Positions 3,382-9,188 of a DNA stretch of 64,000 nt are shown here, piece by piece. The position numbers and the translations under genes are program-made. The DNA comes from Myxococcales bacterium (lineage in GTDB: Bacteria > Myxococcota_A > Polyangia > Haliangiales > Haliangiaceae): assembly GCA_016794525.1 (NCBI GenBank), contig JAEUJY010000034.1, positions 62,001 to 126,000 of the forward strand. Reading direction: 5' to 3'. The notes beneath the pieces are model-generated. The model worked only from the letters and a program-made list of their open reading frames with translations, was not told the DNA's origin and ran no database searches. Each line of letters begins with the position of its first letter. The stretch's first letter is position 1.

Positions 3382-4533
3382 GTGCGCGGCCTCGGGCGGA
3401 ACCTGGTCGCGGTGGCGCTGGGGGCGATCGCGGCCGCCGCGTGCCTGGTGGTCGCGTCGGCCGCCGGCCTCACGCCGCGGCGTCCGGCCCCGACGGCGCG
3501 GGTCGTCGCCGAGGACGCCAGCGCGCCGCTGGCGCGGATCGCGATCCACTACGCGCCGGCGGCCGACGACGTCGCGTTGCCGGTCTGGCAGCAGCTGTTC
3601 GCGGCGCTGCCGGCGCGGGTCGAGGTCGCGGTCGCGGTCGCGCGCGCCGCTGACTTCGTGCGGTTCCAGGCGCTGCTCGGCGCCGCCGGCGTCGGCGACC
3701 TGGCCCGCTTCCATCCCGTGGTCGTCGGCCACGAGGTCACGACCTGGTCGCGCGATCGCTTCGTCGCGCTGGCCGATCCCGACGGCCGCGGCGTGGTGCT
3801 CGCGCCGCCGCGCGTCGAGGTCGGCGCCGCCGGGCGCGCCGGCGACATGGCCTCGCCCGACGCGCTGGCGCGCGCGGTCTGGGATCGCCCGGCCCGCACC
3901 GCGCCGTTCGTCTTCGAGGGCGGCGACTTCGCCGCGTCGGCGCACACGCTGTTCGTCGGCGCCGAGGTGCTGGTGCGCTCGCGTGGGCGCGGCGGCTTCG
4001 ATCGCGCCTCCATCGACCGCGCGCTGCGCCGGTCGGTCGCCGGCGACATCGTCTGGCTGGGCGATCAGCCCGGCGACGTGCCGCACCACCACGTCATGAT
4101 GTACATGGTCCCGCTCGACGACCACGAGGTGTTGGTCGGCGATCCCGCCGCGGGCGCTGCGCTGGCCCGCCAGGAGCCCGCCGCCGCCGCGCTCGTGCTC
4201 GACGCCGACCAGGCCGGCCACCAGCGCCGCTTCGATCACGTCGCCGAGCTGCTGACCGCGCGCGGCCTCCGGGTGCGCCGCATGCCCGTCGTCGTGCTCG
4301 CCGACGCCGGCAGCTACGTCACCTACACCAACGCGCTCTTCGACCGCGAGCCCGGCCCGCACGGCCGCCCCATCGTCTACCTGCCGACCTACCGCCTGCC
4401 CGCCCTCGACGCCGCCGCCGCCCGCCACTACCGCGACCTCGGCTACCTCGTCCGCCCGATCGACGTCTCGTCGATCTACCAGCTCAACGGCTCCCTCGGC
4501 TGCCTGGTCAACGTGATGGCGCGGGGCCGCTGA
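3382..4533 (+). CDS. Agmatine deiminase / peptidyl-arginine deiminase superfamily protein, membrane-anchored or exported
   Basis: A 383-residue protein whose landmarks match the guanidino-group-modifying fold of agmatine deiminase: WSRDR with Asp125, FEGGDF with Glu179, HHHVMMYMVP with the His235-237 cluster, VLVGD, SYVTYTNAL, and a C-terminal SLGCLVN that places Cys374 where the nucleophile lies. These enzymes hydrolyse a guanidinium group to ureido plus ammonia. Unlike cytosolic agmatine deiminase it begins with a hydrophobic segment (residues 7-30), so it probably acts outside the cytoplasm. The substrate is unknown, and the Cys context (usually GGGIHC) is diverged. GTG start, one base after the previous stop. 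Its last 75 codons have a degenerate copy at 6153-6280. Confidence 0.68.
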   Translation: MRGLGRNLVAVALGAIAAAACLVVASAAGLTPRRPAPTARVVAEDASAPLARIAIHYAPAADDVALPVWQQLFAALPARVEVAVAVARAADFVRFQALLGAAGVGDLARFHPVVVGHEVTTWSRDRFVALADPDGRGVVLAPPRVEVGAAGRAGDMASPDALARAVWDRPARTAPFVFEGGDFAASAHTLFVGAEVLVRSRGRGGFDRASIDRALRRSVAGDIVWLGDQPGDVPHHHVMMYMVPLDDHEVLVGDPAAGAALARQEPAAAALVLDADQAGHQRRFDHVAELLTARGLRVRRMPVVVLADAGSYVTYTNALFDREPGPHGRPIVYLPTYRLPALDAAAARHYRDLGYLVRPIDVSSIYQLNGSLGCLVNVMARGR

Positions 4534-4545
4534 GGCGCCGCTCTG

Positions 4546-4743
4546 CGACGATCCCCATCCGAGCGTCGGAGCGACGATCCCCATCCGATCGTCGGCCCCA
4601 TCCGATCCCCCCATCCGATCCCCATCCGATCGTCGGCCCCATCCGATCCCCATCCGATCGTCGGAGGCTGCGACGATCCCCATCCGATCGTCACGCGACA
4701 TCCGATCGTCGGAGGCCCTGACGGTCCCCATCCGATTCATCGC
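4546..4743 (+). repeat. REP-like palindrome array A
   Basis: Copies of a 23-base hairpin unit: arms CGACGATC and GATCGTCG, loop CCCATCC. A perfect copy lies at 4572-4594; near-perfect copies at 4546-4568 (one arm mismatch) and 4671-4693; partial or fused copies at 4597-4664, where CCCCATCCGATC is reiterated several times in short direct repeats, and at 4699-4712; a decayed copy ends near 4743. The array starts 12 bases after the stop of the deiminase-like gene and ends 55 bases from the 3' end of the transposase gene, so it fills the space between two convergent genes, the usual place for REP elements. Confidence 0.85.
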
Positions 4744-4797
4744 GGTTCGTACGATGGTGCTCAACACCCATCCACGCCGCAGTACCGACGTGTCCGG

Positions 4798-5805
4798 TCA
4801 GCCGGACATCGGCGCGACTTGAGGAGCGCCCAGGGGTGGCGACCCGGACGGCCACTGGCAACCTTGGGCGCCAGGGCGGGCTGGGTCAGATGGCTCAGGC
4901 ACGAACGCGAGCGGTCGAGGGAAGCCGTTCGGCGGGAAGCCCGGGAAGAGTTGATGGGCGCGCTCCCGGATCGAGTTCGCTGCTGACCGGAAAGCGTCGA
5001 CAAACGCGCGATAGATCTCGTGAAACCCACGCCGGCTCGCCTCGGTCGAGGCGTGGCACAGCGGCGGGCGACTCTGCTTGGACTCGGCCGGTCGCGCAAA
5101 GGCGGACTGCGCCAGGATCGCGCGCATGCCGAGCGGTGGAGCGCTTCGGGTGCTGGCGGCGCGCGCCTCGACCTCGTCGACGAGCGCCTGGTGGCGCGCG
5201 CGCAGCTGGTCGGCGGCGAGGTGCGCCCATTGTGGGATCGGGGTCAGTCTGACCTCGACCAGCTCTTCGAACGACTTGGGGGCAGGCGGCTTCGCGCGGC
5301 GCGCAGCGCGCGTCTGGCGGTCACGGTTGACCCAGATCCCGTCCAGCTGCATGTCGCCGAGCAAGGCGGGCGTGGAGGAAGCGCCAGTCCAGTCGAGGGC
5401 GTGGCCGACGAGGCCCTCCTTCACGCCTTGTGAGATGACGTATCGAAGGCGATCGACGACGGCGTCGTCATCGACGACCTCGATGACTGACGCGCGATCG
5501 TTCCAGAACCGGCCCTTCCAGCCATGCAATCGCGCCATCTCACGGGCGATGTTGCTGTTGATGTAGCCGATGAAGCGGGCGAGGCTGCCCCCGTCGAGGG
5601 CCGAGGCGAGCAGGTGGTAGTGATTCGAGAGGAAGGTGAACGCGTAAAGCTGCACGAGCGGATACGTCCAAAGCGCCCGCGCGAGGACCCCTAGGATCAA
5701 CAGGCGCCCCTCCTCTGTCGGCGGGAGCAAGAAGCGCTCCTCGACGGTGCGCGACATGAACTCAAAGATCGACCGCCGCCGATACATCCTCAACCTCGAC
5801 GCCAT
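4798..5805 (-). CDS. Y1 (HUH) transposase, RAYT-like
   Basis: A 335-residue single-strand DNA transposase of the IS200-like Y1 family. The HUH metal-binding motif is NHYHLL (His62, His64) in LYAFTFLSNHYHLL. The helix ARFIGYINSNIAREM supplies the candidate nucleophile Tyr81, and the following GRFWNDRASVIEV and RLRYVISQGVKEGLV segments match the family's GxFWxxR and RYIxxNPVxAGLV blocks. The last 150 residues are a poorly conserved extension found in many deltaproteobacterial members. ATG 5805 was preferred; ATG 5787, with GAGG upstream, is also possible. The frame stays open further upstream, but only through repeat array B. All catalytic residues are present, so the enzyme may be active. Confidence 0.85.
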   Translation of the reverse strand: MASRLRMYRRRSIFEFMSRTVEERFLLPPTEEGRLLILGVLARALWTYPLVQLYAFTFLSNHYHLLASALDGGSLARFIGYINSNIAREMARLHGWKGRFWNDRASVIEVVDDDAVVDRLRYVISQGVKEGLVGHALDWTGASSTPALLGDMQLDGIWVNRDRQTRAARRAKPPAPKSFEELVEVRLTPIPQWAHLAADQLRARHQALVDEVEARAASTRSAPPLGMRAILAQSAFARPAESKQSRPPLCHASTEASRRGFHEIYRAFVDAFRSAANSIRERAHQLFPGFPPNGFPRPLAFVPEPSDPARPGAQGCQWPSGSPPLGAPQVAPMSG

Positions 5806-5870
5806 GGTCCCACGCCAAGCAACCCGCGTGCCGGACAGCTCGGCCCCACAGCGGGCAGTGCGGCGACCCC

Positions 5871-6143
5871 ACGATCCCCATCCGATCGTCAGTAGGCATC
5901 GGCAGGGCGGCGACCCGACACGATCCCCATCCGATCGTCGGAGGGCGGGCAGCGGCGTCAGGGCGCCAACGCGACGATCCCCATCCGATCGTCGGACCCC
6001 GCCGATTGTCGGACGCCATCCGATCGTCGGACCCCGCCGACCCGACGATCCCCATCCGATCGTCAGACCCGACCCGACGATCCCCATCCAATCGTCGGAC
6101 CCCGCCGACCGGACGCCGGCCGGACGATCCCCATCCGAGCGTC
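5871..6143 (+). repeat. REP-like palindrome array B
   Basis: Seven recognisable copies of the same hairpin as array A: 5871-5890, 5919-5940, a perfect copy at 5972-5994, a broken copy spanning 6001-6030, then 6043-6065, 6075-6097 (GATC changed to AATC) and 6123-6143 (GAGC). The first three are separated by unrelated 25-35-base spacers; the last four share a spacer core GGACCCCGCC, as if amplified together. The array lies upstream of the transposase start codon and could affect its expression. The remaining bases of the 5806-6347 gap hold the deiminase remnant and about 65 bases with no visible feature. Confidence 0.85.
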
Positions 6144-6152
6144 AGACCCCGC

Positions 6153-6280
6153 GGCAGCTACGTCACCTGCACCAACGCGCTCTTCGAGCGCGAAGCCGGC
6201 CCCGCCGGCCGCCCGACCGTCTACTTGCTTGCCGAGCTCAACGGGGCGCTCGGCTGCCTGGTCAAGGTGATGGCGCGCGC
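6153..6280 (+). pseudogene. Remnant of the 3' end of the agmatine-deiminase-like gene
   Basis: Translated in frame it reads GSYVTCTNALFEREAGPAGR, then PTVYLL, then AELNGALGCLVKVMARA. This aligns with the C-terminus of the intact protein at 3382-4533 (GSYVTYTNALFDREPGPHGR, IVYLP, QLNGSLGCLVNVMARGR), with about 30 internal residues deleted between YL and LNG. There is no start codon and no stop at the expected place; the frame runs on into antisense of the next gene. DNA identity is high but clearly not perfect, so the duplication is not recent. It begins ten bases after the last hairpin of array B. Confidence 0.8.
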
Positions 6281-6347: not shown

Positions 6348-6977
6348 CTAGCGAAGCCGGTCGCGCACGTGCCTCAGCCACGCGCGCAACGTGTGGCCGT
6401 CGGCTCCCGGCAGGTGGTCGAAGTAGAGCTTCTCGCGGAACGCACGTTCGAGCGCAGGATCGTCGGGGAACGCGGCGAGGAAGGCGTCGAGAAGGCTCGC
6501 GACCAGCTCGCGTTGCTCGCGTGAACGCTCGGCGATGTACGCGTCGAGCGCTTCGGCGGGCGTGGCCGCTTCGAGTGGGCCATCGGCACGGAAGTAGCTG
6601 GCGAACTCGTATAGCTCGTAGGGCGTCGGTGGCTTCACGGCGCGGGCGGGACGCTGTTGTCGCTCGTCGTCCAGCAGCGCCTGAAGCGACGGCAAGCCCA
6701 CCGCAGCGAGGCGCGGCGCCAGGCACTCGACACAGTCCCCCAGGAGGTACCCCTCGAAGAAGAAGTTCTCCGCGTCGTCATCCACCGCCCACGCCTCGGC
6801 AGCCAGGACGACGTCCACCTTTGCGGCGCACGCCAGGCAGAAGAGCGACGCCTCGCCGTCCCGGTCGAAGCGCGCGACCACGTCGAGCCGTCGCTCGGTC
6901 ATCAGGGCGTCGTAGGCGGAGCGACAGATGGGGATTCCCCACTGGAGATCGTGAACAGGGCACTGGCACGCGGGCAT
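6348..6977 (-). CDS. Hypothetical protein with CxC/CxxC zinc-knuckle-like motifs
   Basis: A 209-residue cytoplasmic protein that I do not recognise. The N-terminal 90 residues contain paired cysteines: Cys4/Cys6 (CQCPVHD), Cys18, Cys47/Cys50 (FCLACAAK) and Cys82/Cys85 (DCVECLAP), enough for one or two zinc sites. The C-terminal half is helical and charged (YIAERSREQRELVASLLDAF). ATG 6977 gives a sensible start directly before the first Cys pair. The minus-strand gene ends 67 bases from the deiminase remnant. The 191-base gap upstream (6978-7168) shares its promoters with the VWA lipoprotein gene; a TATTCT on the minus strand could be a -10, but this is weak. Confidence 0.6.
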   Translation of the reverse strand: MPACQCPVHDLQWGIPICRSAYDALMTERRLDVVARFDRDGEASLFCLACAAKVDVVLAAEAWAVDDDAENFFFEGYLLGDCVECLAPRLAAVGLPSLQALLDDERQQRPARAVKPPTPYELYEFASYFRADGPLEAATPAEALDAYIAERSREQRELVASLLDAFLAAFPDDPALERAFREKLYFDHLPGADGHTLRAWLRHVRDRLR

Positions 6978-8828: not shown

Positions 8829-8952
8829 GCGGCCATCGTGTGGCCGGCACTCGACCGGTGCAATGCGACAGGCTGTCTCCGCGCCGAACCAAACGGAACG
8901 AGCACGACGTCGGCCGCGTATCGTCAGGGCGCGCCCCCCGCCCATCCGGATC

Positions 8953-9188
8953 GACGCTCCCCATCCGATCGTCAGGGGCCGGCCGGGGCCCGACGCTCCC
9001 CATCCGATCGTCAGGAGCCGGCCAGGGGCCCGACGCTCCCCATCCGATCGTCAGGGCCGGCCGGGGCCCGACGCTCCCCATCCGATCGTCAGGAGCCGGC
9101 CAGGGGCCCGACGCTCGCCATCCGATCGTCAGGGGCCGGCCGGGGCCCGACGCTCCCCATCCGATCGTCAGGGGCCGATCGTCAGGGG
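8953..9188 (+). repeat. Tandem array C of REP-like hairpins, about 39-bp period
   Basis: Six copies of a 21-base unit with the same CCCATCC loop as arrays A and B but different arms (left GACGCTC, right GATCGTC) start at 8953, 8992, 9032, 9070, 9110 and 9149. A truncated seventh right arm ends at 9188. Spacers are 18, 19, 17, 19 and 18 bases; two forms alternate (AGGGGCCGGCCGGGGCCC type and AGGAGCCGGCCAGGGGCCC type), so the array looks amplified as a dimer of about 79 bp. The spacers contain GGCCGGCC palindromes, so each period can form two hairpins. It fills most of the 415-bp gap (8829-9243) between two divergent genes, so their promoters must lie in or beside it. Confidence 0.88.

Follow-up and report, generated by a model that had tools for sequence, protein, structure and literature searches.

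In gammaproteobacteria, from which the rules of REP/RAYT systems derive, a GTAG foot is part of recognition. The locus described here lies in a myxobacterial genome (9.8 Mb, 177 contigs) and raises the question of whether a Y1 transposase and the foot-less hairpin arrays on either side of it form a comparable pair, as an earlier note on this DNA had proposed. We analysed the window, a stretch of 64,000 nucleotides (G000:C37:62001-126000), together with the host genome and its relatives. The results favour, with a probability of roughly 55%, a REPtron-like pair composed of a RAYT-type Y1 transposase and species-specific short palindromic repeats. Arrays were placed relative to genes called by codon usage, with the window as training set, and the features of the locus are as follows:

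3382-4533, plus strand: PAD_porph-type deiminase gene (Pfam 2.4e-6, gene call).
4546-4741, plus strand: left hairpin array, units at 4546, 4572, 4613, 4641 and 4671.
4798-5805, minus strand: Y1 (HUH) transposase gene, RAYT-like, 335 aa (ORF, profiles, alignment to ISDra2, Foldseek, homologs).
5869-6144, plus strand: right hairpin array, units at 5869, 5918, 5972, 6043, 6075 and 6122.
6152-6277, plus strand: partial second copy of the deiminase gene 3' end (source 4308-4523; 77 nt at 87%, 43 nt at 91%).
8952-9170, plus strand: third array of 6 units with the GACGCTC variant, between divergent genes.

The Y1 gene does lie between two hairpin arrays of uniform orientation, with all copies on the plus strand and about 60 nt between gene and array on either side. 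The array coordinates given earlier covered these two arrays correctly and left out the third. The left array starts 12 nt after the deiminase stop codon and also holds decayed pieces at 4697 and 4720, and the right array holds a decayed unit near 6010. Beyond the arrays lies the copy of the deiminase 3' end, so that direct repeats bracket the element made up of the Y1 gene and its arrays. A CdiI_2 immunity-like protein with unusual GC3 (6348-6977, minus strand, 3.7e-12) adjoins the arrays.

We then assessed the protein, numbering its residues from the ATG at 5805, the start common to its homologs. It carries H62, H64, W101, the catalytic Y122, a Y-x3-Q motif and a C-terminal extension. Profile matches were modest: Pfam Y1_Tnp reached 0.0036, under its curated cut-off, and NCBIfam NF047646 REP_Tyr_transpos reached 33.5 bits (E 3.5e-8), short of its curated cut-off of 80 bits; a PHROGs search with four Y1 proteins returned no match. 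A three-sequence profile aligned with the ISDra2 transposase at E 0.12, a result whose value lies in its register and not its score, and placed H62/H64 on the HUH motif and Y122 on the YIESQ tyrosine. The intact HUH motif of His62 and His64 described earlier was borne out by this register and by the homolog alignment. Tyr81, previously listed alongside the HUH motif, is not catalytic: it belongs to FIGYINSN, a helical stretch that precedes the W motif. Catalysis is assigned to Tyr122 (LRYVISQ), which aligns with the ISDra2 QKYIESQ motif and is invariant among homologs.

The predicted structure was of low confidence overall (mean pLDDT 63, core near 80). Its best PDB match in Foldseek was 4er8, the E. 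coli RAYT with a REP hairpin, followed by the ISDra2 and IS200/IS608 transposases of the IS200/IS605 family, and on this model the predicted fold is RAYT-like. The assignment of Tyr122 follows from the ISDra2 register together with these structural matches to RAYT and IS200 transposases. The residue four past it is Q (Y122-VIS-Q126-G), as in IS200/IS605, and nearer homologs have Q or H at this position. Class 2 RAYTs have NP where IS200/IS605 have Q (PMC6006769), and their signature Y-x3-NP is absent from the Y1 protein. In the tree, the window protein has a long branch and falls in a clade of 17 whose internal order is poorly resolved; its closest homolog (G003:C43) is 49% identical and the next best copy in the host genome 39%.

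Alignment of 75 hairpin units from 13 arrays defined a core of 21 nt, GACGATC-CCCATCC-GATCGTC, with a stem of 7 bp and a loop of 7 nt. The 23-base unit with 8-bp arms described earlier was too long for the family, as the outer C-G pair occurs in a minority of copies. The CCCATCC loop is indeed conserved, to the same degree as the stem, and the flanking columns of the 75 units contain no GTAG/GTGG foot, in agreement with the earlier description. The base on the 3' side of the core is mostly A (array-weighted 0.77), and outside the core the arrays share only a weak CC(C/T) before it and A(G/C)G after it. Stem changes are few; a few are G-T wobbles and none retains Watson-Crick pairing, so that the units show likeness by recent common origin and give no sign of selection for pairing. 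Arm covariation was therefore rejected as structural proof. RNA folding of the hairpin gave -8.0 kcal/mol, and -9.3 for the other strand. An Rfam search with the hairpin returned no match, and the reading as an RNA family was dropped for that reason.

The window contained 17 hairpin matches with at most 3 mismatches, those of the third array among them, compared with 0.00 in 100 dinucleotide shuffles. A genome-wide count, which had been called for, gave 74 matches against 0 for the reversed control pattern, at about 11 intergenic places; the hairpin is thus not confined to the loci first named. The arrays fall between called genes apart from small overlaps at three places: at C39 and C162 these involve only low-scoring calls or genes that have an array on either side, and at C113 a stop codon. 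Within each array all copies run head to tail in one orientation, and inverted pairs of the BIME/REPIN type were found at none of the arrays of the host genome. Arrays occur in either orientation to the gene that precedes them, and a strict strand bias was contradicted by contig C79, where arrays point both ways. For eight of the 11 arrays a stop codon is no more than about 35 nt away, by distances taken from the gene-call tables. This placement and the folding energies are what would be expected if the host retained the arrays as transcription terminators, to stabilise mRNA 3' ends or as binding sites for regulators. We consider such a role very improbable, as the hairpins have no U tract, stand in both orientations to the upstream gene, include one array between divergent genes, show no compensatory changes and no Rfam match, and are absent from every relative.

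The restriction to one genome was evident when the hairpin was searched with at most 1 mismatch: the host genome gave 64 matches, and the 317 other class genomes together gave two, each standing alone and with one mismatch. Six congeners gave background matches only, and a search of viral contigs found none. Apart from the two lone hits the hairpin family is private to the host genome, in contrast to the equal abundance in transposase-free relatives that would have counted against the earlier reading.

Other Y1 genes have repeats of their own beside them. In the sister species G006, which has ten Y1 copies, CCGAGAGGTTGCTACCC occurs 53 times, and it is absent from 9 other genomes searched; by distances taken from the tables, 52 of the 53 have a Y1 copy no more than 8 kb away. 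G009 carries 44 copies of GGTGTCACCCACCCGG and its variants, many away from its five Y1 genes; the Y1 flanks of G025, G009 and G010 hold further, differing repeats; and the closest homolog (G003:C43) has three local repeat copies and one looser copy. Another Y1 gene of the host (C109), from a distant clade, is surrounded by four arrays of GCAACCCCGG[AT]GC, all no more than 5 kb away (L120:5966-11005), and exact copies of the searched variant occur nowhere else. An 11-mer present at least 5 times was found in 6/24 Y1 flanks compared with 13/274 control regions (p = 0.002, the flanks of one genome being not fully independent), and half of the 24 flanks tested had no repeat. For the covariation of hairpin and transposase raised earlier, the closest Y1 homolog being just 49% identical, the judgement is a qualitative one: different Y1 genes accompany different private repeats.

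Repeats of other layouts were also observed. L105 (G005:C10) and L107 (G003:C30) are Y1 islands, each about 20 kb long, in which GGTGTCACCC palindromes occur on either strand and in ORFs as well; the two share a gene set of sulfatase, PQQ-metallophosphatase, kinase and HEAT proteins, and a reading of them as gene-cassette arrays was dropped in view of this common gene set and the palindromes within ORFs. In G310, L163 and L165 hold distant Y1 genes with GGTCCGACACC repeats, which have a 24-nt period in L163, where a TGGCGG/CCGCCA hairpin also lies about 156 nt upstream.

Individual arrays grew locally. Linkers copy the local sequence of their site, are specific to each array and repeat within it (28-nt period in C48, 37-nt period in C79c), which shows tandem duplication on the spot to be the source of most copies in an array. 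A stretch of flank is duplicated across three arrays, those of the window (77 nt at 87% and 43 nt at 91%), C79c (43 nt at 100%) and C86 (140 nt at 94%). At C86 (L056), near a contig end, the 140-nt direct repeat (94%) and a 144-nt inverted repeat (78%) surround the array.

Another family of tandem hairpins, TCCCACGTGGGATCGA, is likewise dispersed in the host genome, where its 49 copies stand at a 25-nt period on contigs C24, C63, C99 and C113 (L141:512 onwards). It was met in a sampled control region, repeat discovery in the host genome having covered pattern searches and sampled regions, and none of its copies has a Y1 gene nearby. Dispersed hairpin arrays in this assembly thus need no adjacent Y1 gene, so that adjacency supports a link between Y1 gene and hairpin and is weak proof alone. 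Only 1 of the 11 places touches the window Y1 gene, and together with the Y1-free family this makes coincidence not negligible. Moreover, the Y1 gene has foreign codon usage, with a log score of -39 compared with +77 to +208 for most neighbours and a GC3 of 0.83 compared with 0.97-1.00, and it may have joined an already existing array only recently.

These observations bear on whether the arrays are ordinary minisatellites that form when replication slips on palindromes and that spread by another route, with the Y1 gene coincidental or inserted into an existing array that served as its target. Array-specific linkers, local duplication, the dispersal of TCCCACGTGGGATCGA without any Y1 gene and the foreign codon usage all agree with this explanation, as does the preference of certain insertion sequences for REPs, reported in PMC1525189. 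However, with 11 places and about 10 Y1 genes, simple arithmetic gives each single family a chance of roughly 0.5 to 2% that one of its arrays adjoins a Y1 gene. In addition, other Y1 genes in the host and its relatives also adjoin private repeats, and slippage alone does not bring one exact 21-mer to 11 places. We regard the minisatellite origin as possible rather than probable.

A different element was shared by the homologs. Most homologous Y1 genes are preceded by a GTCCG-N5-CGGAC hairpin with a fixed stem and a variable loop, mostly 70-190 nt before the Y1 start and in some cases doubled or tripled at intervals of about 20 nt. A GTCCG-N5/6-CGGAC hairpin was present within 250 nt upstream of 17/26 Y1 genes (those with enough upstream sequence) compared with 11/1580 control pieces of the same length. 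The element occurs at L034-L037, L060-L066, L068, L070, L072-L073, L075-L076 and L079 and spans Y1 clades that have little identity with one another. In other parts of these genomes it is near chance, with 14 in 400 kb (loops 1-8). SOS/LexA control of the Y1 gene was considered and rejected: in six genomes the lexA promoter has sites of the GTTCAG type and lacks GTCCG-N5-CGGAC. Two features of the window belong to this element:

4792-4807, no strand: perfect hairpin GTCCGG-TCAG-CCGGAC over the Y1 stop codon (sequence, motif scan; the motif is the homologs' upstream hairpin).
5822-5836, minus strand: decayed GTCCG-N5-CGGAC copy (GTCCGGCACGCGGGT) just upstream of the Y1 start (read by eye).

On the strand of the gene, some units of the array upstream of it read GTCCG-ACGAT-CGGAT, a 9/10 match to GTCCG-N5-CGGAC, and TCCGGA occurs in the linkers of 4/13 arrays. 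The likeness is suggestive, no more, of an array unit that may descend from an ancestral GTCCG-N5-CGGAC hairpin. The cognate element of the Y1 family could then be the upstream hairpin itself, as a site of self-recognition or an operator, with the amplified hairpin as a derivative or bystander. Its enrichment before proteins of low identity with varying loops fits such a role, as do the perfect copy at the stop codon of the window gene, the matching array units and the linkers with TCCGGA. Against it, the element is not itself a dispersed repeat, being near chance elsewhere in the same genomes, the upstream copy at the window gene is decayed, and the 9/10 overlap with the array unit could be chance. 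We hold this alternative to be tentative and somewhat unlikely; the conserved upstream hairpin is in any case a concrete candidate substrate of the Y1 proteins.

Returning to the REPtron-like pair, the Y1 protein would recognise the folded, single-stranded 21-nt hairpin with its 7-bp stem and CCCATCC loop, and would cut and join single strands beside it by means of Tyr122 and the HUH site. Occasionally a hairpin copy would be seeded at a new intergenic site, mostly just past a stop codon. It would then spread locally by tandem duplication, during which the flanking bases of the site would be copied into the linkers, giving head-to-tail arrays. The data show the gene with its predicted fold and catalytic residues, the dispersed intergenic arrays confined to the host genome, their site-specific linkers and the flank duplications at three arrays; recognition, cutting, seeding and mobilisation by the Y1 protein are inferred. 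The REP/RAYT system proposed in the earlier note thus stands in its dispersal, its RAYT-like predicted fold and its private repeats, but the family is small (75 units), its repeats are direct and its growth is by local duplication. That the hairpin follows a recognition rule of its own is a guess.

A broader scenario, which we consider quite unlikely as a whole, is a Myxococcota branch of long RAYT-like Y-x3-[QH]-G proteins with an ancestral GTCCG-N5-CGGAC hairpin, in which each lineage would have amplified its own loop-specific hairpin without a guide tetranucleotide and recognition would have switched repeatedly. The myxobacterial sister species, with related Y1 proteins and unrelated private repeats, offer a natural series for this question of hairpin switching. 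The GTCCG-N5-CGGAC hairpin that precedes most homologous Y1 genes is new, and the tag-less hairpin family with its Y1 gene looks like a new variety of the REP/RAYT partnership.

Finally, we compared the pair with known systems. CRISPR does not describe it, as the linkers repeat within an array and a scan of the immediate neighbours gave no cas-like domains. With IS200/IS605 it shares HUH/Y1 chemistry and the Y-x3-Q motif, but near-identical copies are lacking (next best 39%) and the protein is much longer (335 aa). CGTC-tagged REPs (PMC3733652) are likewise short palindromes with GTC at one end; theirs have an unpaired CGTC, stems of 8-9 bp, loops of 4-5 nt and inverted dimers, whereas here GTC is part of the stem and the loop has 7 nt. 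TnpAY1 class 3 (PMC6006769) has Q and not NP after the tyrosine and atypical many-copy hairpins beside the gene; its Q is five after the tyrosine in a protein of about 178 aa, compared with four after in 335 aa here, and in place of its CnGA foot a CCGA string occurs here with its bases paired in the stem. TIRYT/TIRtrons (Di Nocera 2013, PMC3733652; subclass 2.1, PMC6006769) share a long RAYT-like protein with a C-terminal extension, genomes without GTAG REPs, and flanking repeats of which some grow into moderate families; they have one pair of terminal inverted repeats, in contrast to the direct hairpin arrays here, where the GGGGWSAS motif was not seen.

The REP/RAYT systems (TnpA-REP) of E. 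coli, Stenotrophomonas and Pseudomonas have in common with this pair a Y1 HUH protein with the 4er8 RAYT fold, a single gene of low intragenomic identity flanked on both sides by private, dispersed, intergenic palindromes, and the possibility of several Y1 genes per genome, each with different repeats. The present pair differs in that its repeat lacks the GT[AG]G foot and occurs in few copies, all in head-to-tail arrays, and in that its protein has Y-x3-Q in place of Y-x3-NP and, at 335 aa, a long C-terminal extension. Because the class 2 signature, the GTAG foot and inverted pairs are all missing, we would call the pair RAYT-like and place it outside every described REP class.
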